Shown: one piece after another, positions 45,149 through 53,673 of the stretch
Position numbering within the stretch: the first letter of the stretch is position 1
Layout: each line of letters starts with the position of its first letter
Source: Hymenobacter canadensis
Lineage (GTDB): Bacteria; Bacteroidota; Bacteroidia; Cytophagales; Hymenobacteraceae
Direction: 5' to 3'
DNA: 64,000 nucleotides
Assembly: GCF_027359925.1 (NCBI RefSeq)
Contig: NZ_CP114767.1
Span: 1,736,001 to 1,800,000, forward strand
Notes under the pieces: generated by a model
The model's input: the letters and a program-made list of their open reading frames with translations, nothing else
Databases searched by the model: none
What the model was told of the DNA's origin: nothing
Program-made: the position numbers and the translations under genes

Positions 45149-46140
45149 AATTATTGTAAGTTTTAGCTTTTACAGAAATTTTATACAAAGAGGACTATAT
45201 TGCCCTTGCAATAAATAGCAACTTAAATTCACAGATTAAATGGCAACAAAGAGAAATAATCAATCAGAACAAAATGAGGTTACAGTGCTCATTAAATCAA
45301 AGGAACATTTTTCGCAAGAGCTTCAAGAAAGAATCAAAACAGCAAGAGATATATTGGATAATAAAAATGATCAAAATTACCCAAAAACACTGTATACCTT
45401 TTTTTCGTCATGGAACGATTATAATCTGGAATTATTGAAGCAATCATTCAACATTCCGTACAACGAATATAGGCACTCGTATGATAATGCGGGTGAATGG
45501 AGCGGCATGCGAATTCGAAGTATTGGGGCTCCACCGCCAACTGAAAATCAAATTTTGCAAGGACAAATTGCAAAAATTGAAAGCAAAGTAAATAATCTTG
45601 AGAACTTACATCAAAAAGTCAAATTAATAAAATCATCATCCGAGTCAGCAGATAAGAAAGAGTCGATTTCTATAAATGCAACAGCTGACCTAAACAAGGT
45701 TTTCATAGTACATGGCCATGATGAATTAGCCAAAATTGAAACCGCACGATTTATAGAGAAATTAGGGCTAAACCCAATAATTCTTCATGAGCAAGCAAGC
45801 TCTGGAAGAACAATTATAGAGAAAATCGAAGCTCATTCTAATGTAGGATTCGGCATAGTATTATATACACCTTGCGATGTTGGAGCAAGTAAAGAAGATG
45901 CAGAAAATCTTCAATCTAGGGCACGTCAAAATGTCGTTTTTGAGCATGGTTTTTTAATTGGTAAAATAGGCAGAAATAATGTATGTGCTTTGGTAAAAGG
46001 AAATATTGAGACCCCTAATGACATTTCTGGTGTAGTTTACATATCAATGGCAAATGATTGGAAACTAAGTCTTACTAAAGAGCTTAGAAGTAGCGGATAC
46101 AAGATTGATATGAATCTTGTCATCTGAGTGCTCAAGACAC
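45149..46140. other. AT-rich island, probable horizontal transfer
   Basis: From just after the MFS stop codon to about 46140 the sequence is strikingly AT-rich by eye (about one third GC against roughly two thirds on both sides). It holds one gene and no transposase or integrase. The boundaries match the gene closely. Confidence 0.8.
45240..46127 (+). CDS. TIR-like nucleotide-binding domain protein (putative defence effector)
   Basis: 295 residues. The C-terminal 140 residues (from KVFIVHGHDELAK) match the predicted nucleotide-binding TIR-like family used as effectors of cyclic-nucleotide defence systems (Cap12/Pycsar type): NPIILHEQASSGRTIIEKIE, GIVLYTPCDVG and ARQNVVFEHGFLIGK, in which the glutamate of FEHG is a candidate catalytic residue. 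The N-terminal 110 residues are helical with WNDYNLELLKQSF, a module I have seen with this TIR type but cannot name. A coiled-coil linker (QGQIAKIESKVNNLEN) joins them. No cyclase or other defence gene is adjacent, so it may act alone. AT-rich codon use differs from all neighbours. NAD cleavage is an inference. Confidence 0.82.
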   Translation: MATKRNNQSEQNEVTVLIKSKEHFSQELQERIKTARDILDNKNDQNYPKTLYTFFSSWNDYNLELLKQSFNIPYNEYRHSYDNAGEWSGMRIRSIGAPPPTENQILQGQIAKIESKVNNLENLHQKVKLIKSSSESADKKESISINATADLNKVFIVHGHDELAKIETARFIEKLGLNPIILHEQASSGRTIIEKIEAHSNVGFGIVLYTPCDVGASKEDAENLQSRARQNVVFEHGFLIGKIGRNNVCALVKGNIETPNDISGVVYISMANDWKLSLTKELRSSGYKIDMNLVI

Positions 46141-46320: not shown

Positions 46321-48552
46321 TTACAGCAGCTTGTCAATCGTAATTGGCAGGTCGCGGACGCGCTTGCCGGTGGCGTGGTGGATGGCGTTGGCCACGGCGG
46401 CGGCTACCCCCAGCATGCCTACTTCCCCGATGCCTTTGATGCCCAGCGGGTTCACCACATCGTCTTCCTCATCCACGAAGATGACGTCGATGTCGTGAAT
46501 GTCGGCGTTGACGGGCACGTGGTACTCGGCAAAGTTGTGGTTCATGTAGCGCCCGAACTTGTGGTCCATCACGGTTTCCTCCATCAGAGCCGCCCCGATG
46601 CCCCACACGACCGAGCCCAACACCTGCGAGCGGGCCGTTTTGAGGTTAATGATGCGGCCGGCGGCAATGGCATTCACCACCCGCGTGACGTGCACCGTGC
46701 CCAGGTCCTCGTCTACCTTCACTTCCACAAACACGGCGTTGTGAGCGTGCAGCGAGTACTGCTTCTGCTTGAGCATGTTGGGCATCGTGGAGCCATCGGC
46801 TTCCACTTTGGCCTCGCCGCTGGCCTGCAGCACGTCGCGGATTACCACGGACTGGTTGTGGTCGGCGCGAAGGCGAATCTGGCCATTCAGGAACTCCACG
46901 TCCTCGAACTTGGCATCCTTGAGCGGCGAGTCGTCCTGCTTCTGGGCCAGCTTCAGGATTTTACCGGCCAGGTCCTGGCACACGCTCTGGATGGCCGTGC
47001 CCACGGAGGCCGCCGTCCAGGAGCCGCCCTGCAGCGGGGCTTCGGGCTGGTCGGTGTCGCCGAGCTTGAAGGATACGGCCTCCAGGGGCAGGCCCATGGT
47101 TTCGGCCGCAATCTGCGTCATGATGGTGTAGGTGCCGGCGCCGTTTTCACCGGAACCGCTCATCACCGTCAGCTTGCCATCGGCCGTGATGGAGGCCTTG
47201 GCAGCCGATTTCTGCTGGGTGGCATCCCAGACGCCGCCGGCCATGCCCCAGCCCACCAGCATCTTGCCTTCGCGCATGGAGCGCGGCTCCTGGCTGCGCT
47301 TTTCCCAGCCAAACTTGGCAGCCGCCTGGTGGTAGCACTCGCGCAGCTTCTTGCTGGAGAATGGCTTATCCACGTTCTGGTCACGGTCGGCGTAGTTGCG
47401 CAGGCGGAACTCCAGCGGATCGAGGCCGGCGGTATAGGCCATTTCGTCCATGGCAATTTCCAGCGCAATGCTGCCCGAGGCGGCACCAGGGGCCCGCATG
47501 TCCAGGGGCGTAAACACGTCGAGCTTGGCCAGCTGGTAGCCCAGCTTCACATTCTCGCACTGGTAGAGCATGCCGCTCCAGTTCACCACATTCTCGGTGT
47601 AGTCCTCGAAGTGCGAGGTTTCGTGGAGGGCGTGGTGCTGCAGGGCCGCCAAAGAGCCATCGGGGTTGGTGGCAAGCTTCACGGTCTGGAGCACGTGGGG
47701 CCGGTGGCCGAAGCTGAACATCTGCTGGCGCGTGAGCGTGAGGCGCACCGAGCGGCGCAGCTCCAGCGAGGCCATCACGGCCAGGTACACCGAGTACTGC
47801 GGCCGCAGGCCTGAGCCGAAGCCGCCGCCCATGTACTCGTTCACCACGCGCACATCGTCCTTCTTCAGGCCGAATACGCCCACCAGGTAGTTTTTCACAT
47901 TGAAAACGCCCTGGGTTTTGTCGTAGGCCGTAATCTGACCTTCGCCGCGCCACTCCACCGTGGTGCTGAACAGCTCCATGGGGTTGTGGTGCTGGGTGCC
48001 GTGCACGTACTCGGCCTCCATGCGGTGCTCGGCGGCCTCCCAGGCCTTGTCGGGGTTGCCGCGGGGCGGTGGCGGCGGCTGGAAGCCGGTTTTGCCGCTG
48101 CCCGGCTCGTAGCCCTTGGCGCGCTGGGTTTCGAGGTTGGTTTCGTGCTTTTCTTCGTCGTACTCGATGCGCAGCACCGAGGCCGCGTAGCGGGCCAGCT
48201 CGAAGGTATCAGCCACAATCAGGGCCACCGGCTGCTGGCTGAACTGAATTTCGGGTTCCTGCAGCGCGCGGAACGGCGAGCCGCCGGGCGCTACCAGGTC
48301 CTTGTGCTTCTTGTCGAGCCAGGCCACGGAGGGCACGTTCTCGTGCGAAAACACCTGGATAACGCCGGGCAGTGCCAGCACCTCGTCGGCGTGGATCTTC
48401 GTGATTTTGCCCTTGGCAATGGGGCTGTTCACCACGTAGGCATACGCCATGTTGGGCAGGTGGTACTCGGCGGCGTAGGTGGCCGTTCCCGTCACCTTGG
48501 CCGGCCCGTCGACGCGGCTGGTGGCTTTGCCGATATAGTTAGTGGTGCTCAT
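46321..48552 (-). CDS. paoC: Molybdenum hydroxylase, Mo-cofactor subunit (PaoC-like)
   Basis: 743 residues of the xanthine oxidase family large subunit. Substrate-channel and cofactor motifs include EYMGGGFGSGL, GGSWTAASVGTAIQ and the C-terminal KGIGEVGMLGVAAAV, whose glutamate is the family's catalytic base. It oxidises aldehydes or N-heterocycles with Mo, passing electrons to the other two subunits. The order 2Fe-2S, FAD, Mo subunit and their lengths match E. coli PaoABC. It is the last gene of the run, 5 bp after the FAD subunit. No Tat signal is visible. A matching maturation gene (PaoD/XdhC) is not in the window. Confidence 0.92.
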   Translation of the reverse strand: MSTTNYIGKATSRVDGPAKVTGTATYAAEYHLPNMAYAYVVNSPIAKGKITKIHADEVLALPGVIQVFSHENVPSVAWLDKKHKDLVAPGGSPFRALQEPEIQFSQQPVALIVADTFELARYAASVLRIEYDEEKHETNLETQRAKGYEPGSGKTGFQPPPPPRGNPDKAWEAAEHRMEAEYVHGTQHHNPMELFSTTVEWRGEGQITAYDKTQGVFNVKNYLVGVFGLKKDDVRVVNEYMGGGFGSGLRPQYSVYLAVMASLELRRSVRLTLTRQQMFSFGHRPHVLQTVKLATNPDGSLAALQHHALHETSHFEDYTENVVNWSGMLYQCENVKLGYQLAKLDVFTPLDMRAPGAASGSIALEIAMDEMAYTAGLDPLEFRLRNYADRDQNVDKPFSSKKLRECYHQAAAKFGWEKRSQEPRSMREGKMLVGWGMAGGVWDATQQKSAAKASITADGKLTVMSGSGENGAGTYTIMTQIAAETMGLPLEAVSFKLGDTDQPEAPLQGGSWTAASVGTAIQSVCQDLAGKILKLAQKQDDSPLKDAKFEDVEFLNGQIRLRADHNQSVVIRDVLQASGEAKVEADGSTMPNMLKQKQYSLHAHNAVFVEVKVDEDLGTVHVTRVVNAIAAGRIINLKTARSQVLGSVVWGIGAALMEETVMDHKFGRYMNHNFAEYHVPVNADIHDIDVIFVDEEDDVVNPLGIKGIGEVGMLGVAAAVANAIHHATGKRVRDLPITIDKLL

Positions 48553-48557
48553 GCGGG

Positions 48558-49580
48558 TTAGGGATTGGAGTTCTGAAATACGTCGGAAGCCTTCTGTGAG
48601 CCGTCGGCGGCCTGCTTCAGGGCCCGCACGATGGCGCGCTGGGCCAGCGCAATCTTGAAGTCGTTGGAGCCCTGGCCTTTGGCCTCGGCTACTACCTGGG
48701 CCGCCACGCGGCGGAAGGTGTCCTCGGTGGCGGGCTGGCCTTTCAGCATGGCCTCGGCCTTCTGGTCGCGCCAGGGCTTGTGGGCCACGCCGCCCAGCGC
48801 CAGGCGGGCATCCTTGATGGTGCCGCCCTCCAGCTCCAGCCCTACCGCCACCGAAATCAGGGCGAAGGCGTAGCTGTTTCGGTCGCGCAGCTTCAAGTAG
48901 CTGAAGTTTTTCTCAAAGCCTTTCTCCGGCAGGTCGAGGCTGATGATCAACTCGCCGGGGGCTAGGGTGTTGTCTTTCTCGGGCTGGTTTTCGGGCAGGC
49001 GGTGGAAGTCGTCGAAGGCAATGCTCCGCTCGCCGTTGGGCCCGCTCACGCGCACCGTAGGAGCCAGCGCCGCCAGGGCCACGCACATATCCGACGGGTG
49101 GGTGGCAATGCAGTGCTCACTGGCCCCCAGAATGGCATGAATGCGGTTGAAGCCCCCGACGGCCGAGCAGCCGGTGCCCGGCTCACGCTTGTTGCAGGGC
49201 GTGGCCAGATCATAGAAATACAGGCAGCGGGTGCGCTGCATGAGATTGCCGCCGTTGGTAGCCGCGTTGCGCAGCTGGGGCGAGGCGCCGGCCAGAATGG
49301 CTTGGTTGAGCAGCGGGTAGCGGCTTTTCACGTCCTCGTTCCAGGCCGTGTCGGCGTTGGTGGCCATGGCGCCCAGGCGCAGGCCGCCGTCGGGCTGGCT
49401 TTCGATGGCGGCCAGCGGCAGCTTGGCCACGTTCACGAGGTGGGTGGGGCGCTCCACGCTTTCCTTCATCAGGTCGATGAGGTTGGTGCCGCCCCCGATG
49501 TAGGCCGAGCCTTCGTGGCTGGCCTGGTCCCGCACGGCATCCTCAACGGCCGTCGCGCGGTGGTAGGTAAATGAGTTCAT
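48558..49580 (-). CDS. paoB: Molybdenum hydroxylase, FAD subunit (PaoB-like)
   Basis: 340 residues. The FAD-binding region has YIGGGTNLIDLMKE and the CO-dehydrogenase flavoprotein C-terminal domain follows. Like PaoB it carries an additional cysteine-rich insertion (TRCLYFYDLATPCNKREPG, then CSAVGG and EHCIATHPSDMC) that in PaoB binds a [4Fe-4S] cluster. It should carry electrons from the 2Fe-2S subunit to an acceptor. Neighbours: 5 bp from the Mo subunit, 73 bp from the 2Fe-2S subunit. Confidence 0.92.
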   Translation of the reverse strand: MNSFTYHRATAVEDAVRDQASHEGSAYIGGGTNLIDLMKESVERPTHLVNVAKLPLAAIESQPDGGLRLGAMATNADTAWNEDVKSRYPLLNQAILAGASPQLRNAATNGGNLMQRTRCLYFYDLATPCNKREPGTGCSAVGGFNRIHAILGASEHCIATHPSDMCVALAALAPTVRVSGPNGERSIAFDDFHRLPENQPEKDNTLAPGELIISLDLPEKGFEKNFSYLKLRDRNSYAFALISVAVGLELEGGTIKDARLALGGVAHKPWRDQKAEAMLKGQPATEDTFRRVAAQVVAEAKGQGSNDFKIALAQRAIVRALKQAADGSQKASDVFQNSNP

Positions 49581-49599: not shown

Positions 49600-49675
49600 A
49601 GAAGTTAGAGCGTAGAATGGGTAGGGCGTACCAGAAACAGAACTTTCTAAGCTCTAACTTCTATGCTCTGAGCTC
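49600..49675. repeat. Imperfect inverted repeat at the 3' end of the 2Fe-2S gene
   Basis: AGAAGTTAGAGC (49600-49611) pairs with GCTCTAACTTCT (49651-49662), with AGCTC/GAGCT further out. The right arm contains the last six codons and the stop codon of the 2Fe-2S gene (49654-49656). Confidence 0.65.
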
Positions 49676-50193
49676 TTTTTATCCACCACTTCCTTCACGG
49701 CGTTGAGGATGCCTACGTAGGCGCCGCAGCGGCAGAGGTTGCCACTCATATGCTCCCGGATTTCGTCTTCGGTGTGGGCTTTGCCTTCGTTGATGAGGCC
49801 CTGAGCCGAGCAGATCTGGCCGGGGGTGCAGTAGCCGCACTGGAAGGCGTCGTGGTCGACGAAGGCCTGCTGCAGCGGGTGCAGGGCCTCCAGGGTACCC
49901 ATACCTTCGATGGTGGTGATGTCGTCGTCGTCGTGCATCACGGCCAGGGTCAGGCAGCTATTCACGCGCTTGCCGTTCACCAGCACCGTGCAGGCACCAC
50001 ACTGGCCATGGTCGCAGCCTTTTTTGGTGCCGGTCAGGTGTAGGTACTCGCGCAGGGCATCGAGCAGGGTGGTCCAGGGGGCAATCTGGAGCGTGTGCTG
50101 CTGACCGTTGATGGTGAGGCTAACCGGGCCGGTAGGTGGCGGCGCGGCCACTCCGCCGGCACTGGCCGCTGAGTTGGTCGGTTGCTGGGTCAT
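49654..50193 (-). CDS. paoA: Molybdenum hydroxylase, 2Fe-2S subunit (PaoA-like)
   Basis: 179 residues. The plant-type ferredoxin cluster motif is CDHGQCGACTV...NSC and the second, helical cluster motif is QCGYCTPGQICSA...NLCRCGAY. Start 50193 gives MTQQPTNSAASAGG, a Ser/Ala-rich lead; it has no twin-arginine motif, unlike E. coli PaoA. The last residues EHRS and the stop codon fall in an intergenic repeat. It is the first gene of the three. A 438-bp region separates it from the TonB receptor gene upstream. Confidence 0.93.
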   Translation of the reverse strand: MTQQPTNSAASAGGVAAPPPTGPVSLTINGQQHTLQIAPWTTLLDALREYLHLTGTKKGCDHGQCGACTVLVNGKRVNSCLTLAVMHDDDDITTIEGMGTLEALHPLQQAFVDHDAFQCGYCTPGQICSAQGLINEGKAHTEDEIREHMSGNLCRCGAYVGILNAVKEVVDKKSSEHRS

Positions 50194-50631
50194 AGAAAGG
50201 GTGTTGTGGTGATGGAGTGGATACGCGGGTGCTCCTGCCCCGGCAGAAACCATAGGGGAGCCTCAAAGCATTACGCTGGCATCCGGGCCAGCGTTATGCT
50301 TTCTACCGTATTTCTCCAGTACAAAATCCTATCCTTTGCCACTGGCTTTACCTATGCCTTATTTTTCAGCTGATTATCTATTTATCAAGATTTAATCTAA
50401 ATATCCCGCCGATTCGGAATTGGGGTAAACTCCAGCAGGCCTATATTTCTTTATATTTATTGAAACGCAACGACCCGCAAATTCTGGCTTTCCAGGCCCG
50501 CCCCCACCCGGCCCGCAGCCAGCGCTGCCTGCGGACCGGAGAATAACCTTGTGGCAGCTGCATGACACTGGTTCAGGCGCTTTTCCGCAGAGGATGTAGA
50601 ATCGTTCTGACAAGGTTCTTGCAGGCCCGAA
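50194..50631. other. 438-bp gap between TonB receptor and 2Fe-2S gene
   Basis: It contains a hairpin at 50265-50302 and an AT-rich block at 50360-50460 with TTAATCTAAATAT, similar to the TCTAAATA in the operator array at 29618. No open frame looks real; the promoter for the molybdenum enzyme genes is presumably here, but no TAnnTTTG element is visible on the minus strand. Confidence 0.5.
50265..50302. terminator. Hairpin in the 2Fe-2S gene leader
   Basis: Arms 50265-50280 and 50287-50302 (16 bp, one mismatch). In the minus-strand direction it lies between the TonB gene and the 2Fe-2S gene; it could terminate the former or attenuate the latter. Confidence 0.6.
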
Positions 50632-53199
50632 TCACAGCCCATACGTCAGTTGCAGGTAGTAGAGGGCGCCCACGCCGGGGCCGCCGAGGTAGCTCACGTA
50701 GTAGTGGTTGAGCAGGTTGCTGGCTCCTAGTTTGAAGCGCAGGTTAGGCTCGGGCAGGCGGTAGCTGAGCTGGGCATCGAGGGTGCCGTAGGCGGGCACG
50801 TAGCCGGTCACCAGGAAGGTTTGGGAGTAGTAGCGCTGCTGCCAGTGGTAGTTGAGGCCAAAGCCGATGTTGTGGGCTACGTTTTCGTTGCCCAGGCTCA
50901 CGTTGGCGGCCCAGCGCGGCGTGTTGAAGCCATCCTCCAGCCCGTCGCCCGACTCGGTGCGGCGCAGGCGGGCGTAGGTGGTGCTGGCCCCGGCCAGGTA
51001 GCCGCCGGCCACCTCGTAGCGCAAACCCAGCGAGCCGCCGTAGTTGTACACCCGGCTGCGGGAGTTCGTCCAGAGGCGGTAGCGGGCCTGGCCGGCGCGG
51101 GCACTCAGGGCGGTGGCCACGGCGTTCAGGTCGGAGCCAGTGGGCAGGGGCTGACCAGCGGCGTTGAGGGGCACGTAGGCTTCCATCTGGGCAATAAAGT
51201 CGCGGTAAGTGTTGGAATAGAATTCCATATCGGCCAGCAGACGGCCGCCGGGCAGCAGAGCGGCTTTGTAGCCCAGCTCTACGGACTTGATGTGCTCGGG
51301 CCGCAGGTAGGTGTAGGGATTCTTCTGCAGCAGGCCCTGGTTCTGGCTGATGGCCTGGCTGCGCGAGAGGCCGCCGGTGTTCACGCCCCGCGTGACGGCC
51401 GCATTGAACGCGTCGATGGAGCTGCGCAAGTAGCTGTTCTCAAACACCCCGTCCGACATCACCCGGAGCCCCCCAATGCGCTTCACCTGCCCGCTGTTCA
51501 CGTTGGAAAACCCCTCGAACAAACTCGGAAACCGGTAGCCGCTCTGGTAGCTCACCCGGAAGTTGTGGCGCTGAGTGGGCGAGTACACGGCCGTGAGGCG
51601 GGGGTTGAAGCGGGTGGTGAAATAATCGTTCTTATCGGCCCGCAGGGTGGCCGTCAGGCGGATTTTCTCTTCCCAGAGCCGCGCCCCGGCCTGCACGAAG
51701 CCCCCGGTTTTGCCGTACGTGAGCGTGCTGAACGGGTCCTCCCCTGCTTCGGGGTTGATGAAGTAGTTGCCGTCGGGCCGGATGAAGTAGGTGCGGTGGT
51801 CGAGCCCCAGCAGCACGTCGGCCCAGGCGGGCAGCCCCTTGCTACCGCCCCGGCGCAAAGCTTCGCTGAGGTTCAGCTGGCCTTCCAGGTGCAGCAAATC
51901 GGCCTGCACGCGCAGAGCCGCGCCCTGGTCCCAGTTGTTGATGTCGGCCAGCTCCCGCAGGCGCTGTTGAAACTCGGGAGTGCCGGGCTGCAGGCGACCC
52001 GCATCGGCGGCGGCGCGGGCGGCGGCGTGAGCCTGCGCCACCGTTTGGCCGGCCTGCGCGGCGGCGTTCCAGGCGGCGGTGTAGTCCTGGTTCCAGAGGT
52101 TATCGGGCTTGAAGCTGCGGTCCAGGTTTTCGGCCATGCTGCGCAGGTTGTAGCTGCGGCCGGTGTTTTCCTGGGTGAAGTAGGCGCGGGCCTGCACCAC
52201 GGGGCCGGTGAGCTGCAAGGCGTGCTGCTGCAGGTGGTAGTTGTCGAGCCGGAACCGGTTGCTGCGCTGGTACACGTTGTCGAAGTTGGCCCCGCGGTAG
52301 GTGTAGGCCAGCTCCGCCTTATCGGTCAGCTTGTAGTGCAGGGCCGCGTCGTACTTGAGGGTTTGCAGTTGGTAGTCGGTCACGTCCTGCTCCCGGTAGC
52401 CGGTGCGGGCCACCTGGTAGCTTTTGCCCCCCAGCGTGAGGTTCGAGCGGTTCGACGACTCATTGCCGTAGCTACTCACCAGGTCGCGGGCCGGGTTATC
52501 GGCTCCCAGCAGACCGGTGGTGGCGTTGCCGTTGGGGTTGATGTCGGTCGGGTCGTGGGCAATCCAGTCGTAGCCGCGCAGGTAGGTGCCGTTCACCTTC
52601 ACCGCCCACTTCGGCCCCAGCACCTGGGCGTAGCGCACACTGGTTTCGGAAAAGGCGTGCGCGTCGGTGGCCGGGTCGTTGAGGTGGTTGACGCCCACCT
52701 TCTGTTGCACGCTCAGGCCGGGGCTGCGGAACGGGTTACGGGTGCTGAAGTTGGCCAGCCCGTTGATGGCATTCAGCCCATACAGCGCGGCGGCCGTGCC
52801 CGGCACCAGCTCCACGGCCTGAATATCCAAATCACTCGGCCCTAGCAGATTGCCGATAGGTGCCCCAATGTGCGGGGCCTGGTTGTCGATGCCGTCCACG
52901 AGCTGGGCGAAGCGCACGTTGGTGGTGTTGCTGAAGCCCCGGGCGTTGAGCACCCGAAACCCCAGGCTGGGCGTAATCATCTGCACGCCCTTCAGGTGCT
53001 CAATGGCATCGAAAAACGAGGCTGCGGGCGTAAGCCGCAGCTGCCGGGCGTTGAGCTTTTCCACCGTCACCGGCGACTGTAGAATACTTTCTTCCACCTT
53101 CGAGGCCGTCACAACCACCTCCCCCAGCCGCGTGGTATCGGGGGCCTGGGCGTGGGCCAGCACCGGAAGCAGCAGAAGCGCGAGCGTAACGTGTTTCAT
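50632..53199 (-). CDS. TonB-dependent receptor, predicted molybdate/tungstate-related importer
   Basis: 855 residues: signal peptide MKHVTLALLLLPVLAHAQ, plug domain (about 25-150, VVVTASKVEESILQSP and IQAVELVPGTAAALYG) and a barrel ending in LQLTYGL. No carboxypeptidase-like N-terminal domain is present. An Ala-rich extracellular stretch (about residues 370-415) is unusual. It is 117 bp downstream of a ModE-like regulator and upstream of a molybdenum enzyme; a ModE-type palindrome covers its promoter. This points to uptake of molybdate, tungstate or a metal chelate, by inference. The receptor family alone does not show the ligand; vitamin B12 or siderophore cannot be excluded. Confidence 0.8.
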   Translation of the reverse strand: MKHVTLALLLLPVLAHAQAPDTTRLGEVVVTASKVEESILQSPVTVEKLNARQLRLTPAASFFDAIEHLKGVQMITPSLGFRVLNARGFSNTTNVRFAQLVDGIDNQAPHIGAPIGNLLGPSDLDIQAVELVPGTAAALYGLNAINGLANFSTRNPFRSPGLSVQQKVGVNHLNDPATDAHAFSETSVRYAQVLGPKWAVKVNGTYLRGYDWIAHDPTDINPNGNATTGLLGADNPARDLVSSYGNESSNRSNLTLGGKSYQVARTGYREQDVTDYQLQTLKYDAALHYKLTDKAELAYTYRGANFDNVYQRSNRFRLDNYHLQQHALQLTGPVVQARAYFTQENTGRSYNLRSMAENLDRSFKPDNLWNQDYTAAWNAAAQAGQTVAQAHAAARAAADAGRLQPGTPEFQQRLRELADINNWDQGAALRVQADLLHLEGQLNLSEALRRGGSKGLPAWADVLLGLDHRTYFIRPDGNYFINPEAGEDPFSTLTYGKTGGFVQAGARLWEEKIRLTATLRADKNDYFTTRFNPRLTAVYSPTQRHNFRVSYQSGYRFPSLFEGFSNVNSGQVKRIGGLRVMSDGVFENSYLRSSIDAFNAAVTRGVNTGGLSRSQAISQNQGLLQKNPYTYLRPEHIKSVELGYKAALLPGGRLLADMEFYSNTYRDFIAQMEAYVPLNAAGQPLPTGSDLNAVATALSARAGQARYRLWTNSRSRVYNYGGSLGLRYEVAGGYLAGASTTYARLRRTESGDGLEDGFNTPRWAANVSLGNENVAHNIGFGLNYHWQQRYYSQTFLVTGYVPAYGTLDAQLSYRLPEPNLRFKLGASNLLNHYYVSYLGGPGVGALYYLQLTYGL

Positions 53200-53227
53200 T
53201 CGTTATATTTTTCCAAACATAACGAAT
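53198..53227 (-). promoter_or_regulatory. ModE-box-like operator overlapping TonB receptor promoter
   Basis: A 30-bp palindrome: ATTCGTTATAT at 53198-53208 and ACATAACGAAT at 53217-53227, with one mismatch and an 8-nt centre. The half-sites CGTTATAT and ACATAACG with 8-nt spacing agree with the E. coli ModE binding site as I remember it. On the minus strand a TATGTTTG (-7 type) element lies inside it at 53214-53221. The outer edge touches the ATG, so the mRNA would have almost no leader. Bound repressor would block transcription. Confidence 0.7.
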
Positions 53228-53237
53228 ATGGCGCGCC

Positions 53238-53306
53238 CGGGTTTCCCGCAAAGGACGCGGAGGTCGTTCTTCTGGGTCCTCTGCGCAACCCTCTGCGTCT
53301 TCTGCG
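53238..53306. repeat. Imperfect repeat CCGCAAAGGACGCGGAGG / CCTCTGCGTCTTCTGCGG
   Basis: A loose inverted repeat between the ModE-like and receptor genes. Similar sequences (GAC/GCAGAGG words) occur widely in bacterial intergenic DNA; function unknown. Confidence 0.45.
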
Positions 53307-53316
53307 GGAACCGACG

Positions 53317-53673
53317 CTAGAACAGCCGCGCCGCCTCCGCGGCCAGAAACGCCTGAAACCGGCCCTGCAGGCCCTCAAACTCTACAATCAGAGCCTCGCC
53401 CTCGGGCGTTACCACGGTGCCACCGCCGCGCTTGCCGCCGGTTTGGGTGAGCACCAGCGGCCGGGCCGCCTGCGCGTTCAGCGACGATACCAAATCCCAG
53501 GCCCGCTTGTACGACATGCCCATTTCCTGCGCCGCCTTCGAGATGGAGCCGTGCTGCTGAATCTGGCGCAGCAGCTCCAGCCGCCCGATGCCCATAAACC
53601 GGTCGTCCGCGGATTCCACCCAGAGGCGGCCGGTGAGGCGGAAGGTCAGGTCGGGGCGCAGCAGGTCTTTCAT
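53317..53673 (-). CDS. ModE-like winged-helix regulator without molybdate-binding domain
   Basis: 118 residues. The N-terminal DNA-binding domain of ModE is recognisable: GRLELLRQIQQHGSISKAAQEMGMSYKRAWDLVSSLN followed by the wing TGGKRGGGTVVTPEG. (Motifs: GSISKAAQEMGMSYKRAW and TGGKRGGGTVVT.) Full ModE proteins are about 260 residues and carry two Mop domains that bind molybdate; these are absent, so either the sensor is another protein or the ligand binds differently. Next to the operator at 53198 and the TonB receptor, it is the obvious regulator. It starts 87 bp from the DnaB gene end and is separated from it by a terminator. Confidence 0.85.
   Translation of the reverse strand: MKDLLRPDLTFRLTGRLWVESADDRFMGIGRLELLRQIQQHGSISKAAQEMGMSYKRAWDLVSSLNAQAARPLVLTQTGGKRGGGTVVTPEGEALIVEFEGLQGRFQAFLAAEAARLF

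Follow-up and report, generated by a model that had tools for sequence, protein, structure and literature searches.

What controls the TonB-dependent receptor gene that lies between a ModE-type regulator gene and a molybdenum hydroxylase operon in Hymenobacter canadensis, and what would this receptor carry across the outer membrane? The locus sits in a 64,000-nucleotide stretch of contig NZ_CP114767.1 (forward-strand positions 1,736,001 to 1,800,000; hereafter the window), which is part of a 5.09-Mb genome (G000) with an estimated completeness of 100%, and sequence comparison of the receptor returns Hymenobacter species as its nearest named relatives. The original prediction, made from the letters of the window, was that a palindrome over the receptor promoter is a ModE box and that the receptor it controls imports molybdenum. 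Our comparisons support this interpretation, and we consider it likely that a ModE-type repressor controls a receptor that imports molybdenum species across the outer membrane. The features of the locus are listed here by window coordinates.

53317..53673, minus strand: ModE-type regulator of 118 amino acids, winged helix-turn-helix only (TIGR00637 profile match)
53198..53227 (core 53201-53224), no strand assigned: predicted ModE-type operator (palindrome, identity with the E. coli modA operator, recurrence at orthologous promoters)
53214..53221, minus strand: TATGTTTG, possible -7 promoter element lying within the operator (from sequence, by its fit to TAnnTTTG)
50632..53199, minus strand: TonB-dependent receptor of 855 amino acids, proposed outer-membrane importer of molybdenum species (PF07715, PF00593)
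50449..50472, minus strand: degenerate second ModE-type box before the molybdoenzyme operon (3 mismatches, matrix score 15.8)
49654..50253, minus strand: 2Fe-2S subunit, PaoA-like (PF00111, PF01799; PaoA model 247.7 bits, cut-off 322)
48558..49580, minus strand: FAD subunit of the molybdenum hydroxylase (PF00941, PF03450)
46321..48552, minus strand: molybdenum-binding subunit, PaoC-like (PF01315, PF02738, PF20256; PaoC model 621.6 bits, cut-off 1180)

The palindrome at the receptor promoter is real. Its arms, ATTCGTTATAT at 53198-53208 and ACATAACGAAT at 53217-53227, can be extended to 13 nucleotides, at which length they are 92% complementary, and its operator core, CGTTATAT-N8-ACATAACG, spans 53201-53224. 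On recheck, the predicted coordinates of 53198-53227 and the 8-base spacer were both right, as were the claims that the palindrome reaches the receptor start codon (it overlaps the ATG at 53197-53199, minus strand) and that it covers a promoter-like element (TATGTTTG at 53214-53221, minus strand, within the palindrome). TAnnTTTG is the -7 motif of Bacteroidota promoters, and TATGTTTG fits this motif, so we take it to be a candidate -7 element. When the core pattern was searched with up to three mismatches, the window gave three matches, two of which are the two strands of the palindrome site, and 100 shuffles of the window gave a mean of 0.06 matches, with none reaching three. The palindrome core is also the sole match without mismatches in the 5.09-Mb genome. 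With up to three mismatches, the whole genome yields 8 forward and 5 reverse matches versus 9 and 10 for a reversed control pattern, and because these counts resemble those of the control, the weak matches are regarded as noise. The second-best genome match (C1:229311, two mismatches, score 5.3), which lies between acetate kinase and DUF808 genes, was likewise set aside as noise. A chance palindrome is ruled out by the shuffles, the uniqueness in the genome, the recurrence in the genus, and the match to the E. coli operator.

For a direct operator comparison, we fetched the modE-modABC region of E. coli K-12. The E. coli modA operator, CGTTATATTGTCGCCTACATAACG, sits 19 bp before the modA start. 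It is identical to the window sequence, CGTTATATTTTTCCAAACATAACG, at each of the 16 half-site positions and in its spacing, and at 19 of 24 positions overall. We also built a weight matrix from 66 unique Hymenobacter receptor boxes, using receptor sites only. Applied to 5 kb of E. coli DNA, this matrix finds the modA operator as the sole good match, with a score of 25.6 (next best, 0.2). The form of ModE site assumed in the original prediction thus agrees with the E. coli K-12 modA operator sequence, and sequence identity marks the palindrome as an E. coli-type operator. The published ModE consensus, given in PMC545781 as ATCGNTATATA-N6-TATATANCGAT, has the same geometry as the window box.

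If the palindrome is an operator for the regulator encoded beside it, the two would be expected to occur together. The genus sample comprises 101 genomes, which were searched with the pattern CGTTATRT-N8-AYATAACG at the mismatch limit stated with each count; ModE-type genes were called at E below 1e-19, and a weaker match in G002 (E 6.6e-4) was not counted, as it was taken for a LysR-type relative. At one mismatch or fewer, the pattern is found in 81 of the 101 genomes and its reversed control in 6. A ModE-type gene is present in 84 genomes. Of these, 81 carry a site at this mismatch limit and three (G011, G047, and G125) do not, whereas the 17 genomes that lack ModE have none (Fisher p 1.4e-16, uncorrected for kinship). 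Receptor orthologs were found in 91 of the 101 genomes (89 by score, plus a split gene in G038 and one at a contig end in G138), and the remaining ten lack receptor, ModE, and box jointly. The prediction would have failed had orthologous receptors lacked the palindrome or stood among unrelated genes, and this was not the case: among the 84 ModE-bearing loci, the box stands at the receptor in 79 with at most one mismatch and in 83 with at most two (none in G011), and the ModE gene lies no more than 3.1 kb upstream of the receptor in 80. In the window, the gap of 117 bp originally reported between the ModE-type gene (53317-53673) and the receptor gene (50632-53199) is confirmed. At the level of sequence, both the recurrence of the operator and its co-occurrence with ModE are plain, and we regard it as very likely that the ModE-type protein controls the receptor.

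Individual genomes depart from this arrangement in several ways. G034 has a box with one mismatch before a second receptor copy (L266), and G131 has two boxes with two mismatches before its receptor and a site with one mismatch elsewhere. The latter (L172:4840-4863, score 19.8) stands before a secreted GDSL-lipase-like protein of 693 amino acids with no visible molybdenum link. Where the ModE gene is unlinked, the receptor box is retained in G031 and G007 and degenerate in G125. A separate observation concerns 19 of the 91 loci, in which a secreted single-domain protein of the PF00174 fold is encoded between box and receptor (e.g., L099:8116-8682, plus strand). Several members have no cysteine in the matched part, and the protein may be without the usual active-site ligand.

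The same box stands before other genes. At modABC loci, the receptor-box matrix, taking the best match in 280 bp, places a box before modA in all 23 cases (scores 9.9-23.4); measured against modA starts that are approximate, having been taken from one modA protein, the box is 2-30 bp upstream in 20 loci and about 110 bp (at most 111 bp) upstream in two, and in the last it overlaps the start. The operator is thus, by sequence, shared with modABC. Among paoA promoters, 17 of 26 in ModE-bearing loci score 13 or more versus none of five in ModE-less loci. In the window, the degenerate box at 50449-50472 lies 195 bp before the paoA-like gene, and in the relatives G005, G012, G116, and G118 the paoA gene is preceded at 190-201 bp by boxes with scores of 18.5-25.4. 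In the fetched loci, a score of at least 9.9 is reached at five moaA promoters, and moaA promoters also take the first seven places among 80 comparison promoters, the best other scoring -1.45. Altogether, 116 of 123 matrix matches fall at receptor, paoA, or moaA promoters, a proportion that reflects mostly receptor-centred loci and is not a genome-wide rate. Of 79 receptor boxes, 45 contain the motif TAnnTTTG on the strand of the receptor and 6 contain it on the opposite strand; of 23 modA boxes, 16 contain it on the modA strand and none on the other. Since 34 of the 79 receptor boxes have no such motif on the receptor strand, a -7 element inside the box is a tendency only. A dimer bound at the box would cover the promoter, which fits repression.

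The PaoABC-like genes were correctly placed downstream on one strand, with the 2Fe-2S, FAD, and molybdenum-binding subunits following the receptor, all on the minus strand. Both scored subunits fall under the NCBIfam curated cut-offs for PaoA and PaoC, and the enzyme reads as a molybdenum hydroxylase that is only PaoABC-like, not assignable as PaoABC. Its position raises the alternative that the receptor imports the enzyme's organic substrate (an aldehyde or aromatic), with ModE matching enzyme and uptake to the molybdenum supply. Although paoA-like genes lie near 30 of the 91 genus receptors in the fetched stretches, as they do in the window, and although receptor and paoABC-like operon are both boxed in many genomes, 61 of the 91 receptor loci are without paoA in the fetched 9-20 kb. 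Among those 61, ModE is lacking only in G035 and G132, and a box with at most two mismatches is lacking in G011 (also in G035). Unlinked paoABC operons have boxes of their own (G013, one mismatch; G109, none; G059, one), and the receptor is also found at moa genes. A receptor tied solely to the molybdoenzyme is made unlikely by the receptor loci that have no molybdoenzyme, and we regard import of an organic substrate as improbable. The window also encodes, at 45240-46127 on the plus strand, a 295-amino-acid protein with a CAP12/Pycsar-type TIR domain (PF10137), possibly a phage-defence effector, whose gene is flanked by an MFS gene and the molybdenum hydroxylase operon.

The moa genes suggest another substrate, namely the finished pterin cofactor (molybdopterin or Moco) or a breakdown product, imported as cobalamin is by BtuB. 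The receptor is linked with moeB-moaA-moaD-moaE in L097-L100 and others, with moaA near 12 of the 91 genus receptors in the fetched stretches, and with moaA outside the genus as well. However, moaA is matched in each of the 101 genus genomes, which makes it probable that they synthesise the cofactor themselves, and the box is common to modABC, a molybdate transporter. Cofactor import is in our view about as unlikely as import of an organic substrate. Import of a molybdenum species by the receptor is the most economical reading, because modABC has the same operator and because moa genes neighbour the receptor in several lineages.

If the receptor imports molybdenum, a transporter should serve the inner membrane. 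ModABC was rejected for this role in the window genome, where no ModB exceeds the cut-off (best match 46.5 bits versus 182.6). The genome does encode a MOT1-type permease (PF16983, 177.9 bits versus a cut-off of 30) at G000:C1:3336009-3337172 (L316:8010-9173), which adjoins moeB- and moaA-type genes. Across the genus, 23 of 101 genomes have a ModB over its cut-off and 77 have a strong MOT1 match (E at most 1e-25), with no overlap, and only G027 (82% complete) has neither. At the PF16983 cut-off itself, 79 of 101 pass, the two additional ones being ModB genomes in which the MOT1 match is weak (E 1.3e-6 or weaker). All 23 ModABC genomes carry receptor and ModE. Judged from these profile matches, the inner-membrane step probably falls to a MOT1-type permease and not to ModABC, in the window genome and in 77 of the 101 genus genomes. 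No box was found at the MOT1-moaA-moeA locus in nine stretches (L316-L322, L324, and L325; best score 4.8), so in those stretches this locus lies outside the control of the operator.

The pairing of box and receptor extends beyond the genus, to Mucilaginibacter, Chitinophaga, Dyadobacter, and Chryseolinea. The receptor alignment supplied named loci, of which the best 80 of 269 were used, and 16 of these lie outside Hymenobacter and Solirubrum. Boxes were counted up to a distance of about 170 bp from where the receptor match begins; 13 of the 16 have one with at most two mismatches and 15 with at most three, and ModE adjoins the receptor in seven. Four Mucilaginibacter boxes (L244, L247, L248, and L254) match the pattern perfectly, the Adhaeribacter box has three mismatches, and L245 has no box near the receptor start. 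In L241 and L245 the receptor has a moaA gene over the curated cut-off as its neighbour, and in L296, from genome G432, in which ModE gave no match, such a moaA gene immediately precedes it. Genes for XdhC- and MobA-like proteins, or for a molybdenum hydroxylase, occur close to the receptor in L241, L245, and L253. In a phylum sample of 395 genomes, the receptor scores at least 1200 bits in 13 (next best, 953), and ModE is present in 12 of these 13 versus 91 of the 382 others.

Several observations weigh against control by ModE and import of molybdenum, and those that concern the regulator bear on sensing. E. coli ModE has a C-terminal molybdate-binding half. The window regulator matches TIGR00637 over residues 27-107 (E 2.9e-25), a homology to the DNA-binding half; its solved relatives are 2ijl and 1o7l, to which it was aligned, and 1b9m, and it is the only TIGR00637-type match in its genome at E 0.001. 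Its 88.2 bits are under the curated cut-off of 98.5, and the TOBE domain (PF03459) has no match in the complete genome, while the same search, run as a control, was positive in 12 of 14 named genomes. Given these two results, a recognisable molybdate sensor is absent, and because the protein has 118 amino acids and no TOBE/Mop domains, we file it as a ModE-type DNA-binding protein, not a canonical ModE. A hidden TOBE partner was considered for the window genome, and the PF03459 search found none (other sensor folds were not searched). For want of a recognisable sensor, a response to molybdate is deduced from the content of the regulon, namely modABC, paoABC-like genes, and some moaA genes. The winged-helix protein might itself sense molybdenum, or a protein with a different fold might do so.

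A second group concerns distribution. Seven of the 91 receptor genomes (G003, G026, G029, G035, G105, G132, and G137) have neither ModE nor a box with at most one mismatch, although G132 keeps a box remnant with two mismatches at its receptor, and G035 is only 82% complete. In favour of a link between ModE and box, on the receptor tree ModE presence changes at least three times; we read these changes as losses, and the box was lost too. These provide three independent pairs only, in which the box goes along in 2.5 of 3 on average, the rest being unchanged, and a kinship-aware sign test is unable to reach significance (median p 0.25). In Geobacter metallireducens, ModE sites decayed after the loss of ModE, according to PMC2700814. 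The receptors of ModE-less G035 and G132 also have long branches (0.26 and 0.24), which may reflect relaxed constraint. Ten of the 101 genus genomes have moaA yet no receptor ortholog, from which it follows that the receptor is not essential. In the phylum sample, 91 of the 103 ModE-bearing genomes lack the receptor, so ModE is common without it. Nine of the 26 paoA promoters in ModE-bearing loci have no box; we treat them as exceptions. Family f26 supplies four more exceptions, in which ModE adjoins the receptor ortholog but no E. coli-type box is present. In three, L293-L295, a different palindrome stands just before the receptor, with the same 8-8-8 layout (CAGTATTC or CAGTGTTC-N8-ACATACTG), which is perhaps a diverged ModE box; in the fourth, L292, neither the E. 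coli-type box nor the variant palindrome was found.

The remaining objections concern the receptor itself. Both transporter domains are present, the plug (PF07715) at 41.7 bits and the TonB-dependent barrel (PF00593) at 105.3 bits, and among solved structures the closest relatives (2hdf) resemble it chiefly in the plug. Its best NCBIfam similarities, all well under the cut-offs, are to hemin and siderophore receptors, which would fit an iron-siderophore or heme receptor placed under ModE for cross-metal balance, as with catechol siderophores that bind molybdate. A siderophore-type receptor does lie near the main receptor in 5 of the first 40 loci (L072, L074, L080, L088, and L096), with ABC-type genes in some, and the member tested exceeds the TIGR01783 cut-off (293.5 bits versus 223.5); it was not found in the other 35 (the receptor's neighbours were not systematically searched for iron genes). 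Molybdophores have been reported (PMC11317620). Paralogous receptors of the same superfamily, however, do not share the box (none of 17, L297-L313; best score 4.4). We consider such an iron receptor very improbable, the least likely of the three alternatives.

Weighing these points, we return to a ModE-type repressor that controls a molybdenum importer, and from the comparisons above we infer how the regulator would bind, in which direction control would run, that molybdenum would be the signal sensed, and what the receptor would carry. The repressor, consisting of a DNA-binding domain alone, would bind the box that covers the receptor's -7 element. When molybdenum is plentiful, the receptor would be shut off and, in many relatives, so would the molybdenum hydroxylase, modABC, and some moaA genes. 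When molybdenum is scarce, the receptor would be made and would take up molybdate, tungstate, or a molybdenum chelate through the outer membrane. Passage through the MOT1-type permease at the inner membrane would follow in the window genome, and then cofactor synthesis. We give an even chance to the broader proposal that this is a dedicated and widely kept Bacteroidota outer-membrane importer of molybdate or a Mo chelate, with an E. coli-type box, a sensor-less ModE, a signal route other than TOBE/Mop, and ModABC or MOT1 inside.

Among the open-access papers listed by our searches, which mostly leave out subscription journals, no title concerns a TonB-dependent receptor for molybdate, and the text of a 2024 review of TonB-dependent uptake contains neither 'molyb' nor 'tungst'. 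Of 3683 molybdenum-using bacteria, 278 have no known molybdate transporter according to PMC6147048, and the present locus raises the question of which transporters serve such organisms. It also raises the question of how a ModE without the molybdate-binding half senses molybdenum. A ModE box on one receptor family narrows the question to one gene and one operator, and the recurrence of this pairing in related bacteria suggests a controlled outer-membrane gate for molybdenum.

Among known systems, E. coli ModE has a homologous winged-helix DNA-binding domain, and its operator half-sites and 8-bp spacer equal those of the window. It differs in having 262 residues, whereas the window regulator has 118 and its genome no detected TOBE domain, and in that its operator controls the transport gene modA, while the window operator precedes an outer-membrane receptor gene. 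A ModE-like protein of Campylobacter jejuni (Taveirne 2009) reportedly lacks the usual ligand domain and still answers to Mo and W; it is said to control ABC transporters, not an outer-membrane receptor. If so, it offers a precedent for sensing without a ligand domain. In two Desulfovibrio species and D. psychrophila, ModE is likewise helix-turn-helix only, with unclear sensing, and the Desulfovibrio operator predicted before molybdate transport genes is CGGTCACG-N14-CGTGACCG, whereas the window has an E. coli-type box before a receptor (PMC545781 for Desulfovibrio). In the accessible part of PMC6147048, MOT1 is tabulated for eukaryotes only, while within this genus it alternates with ModABC. 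The Caulobacter Zur regulator and its TonB-dependent zinc receptors (PMC4176598) reportedly link a metal regulator to outer-membrane receptors for that metal; here an oxyanion, another regulator family, another operator, and another phylum are involved, and transport is only proposed. By its domains the window regulator is not a full ModE, and to judge from its gene and operator organization the system works like such a pair of metal repressor and receptor.

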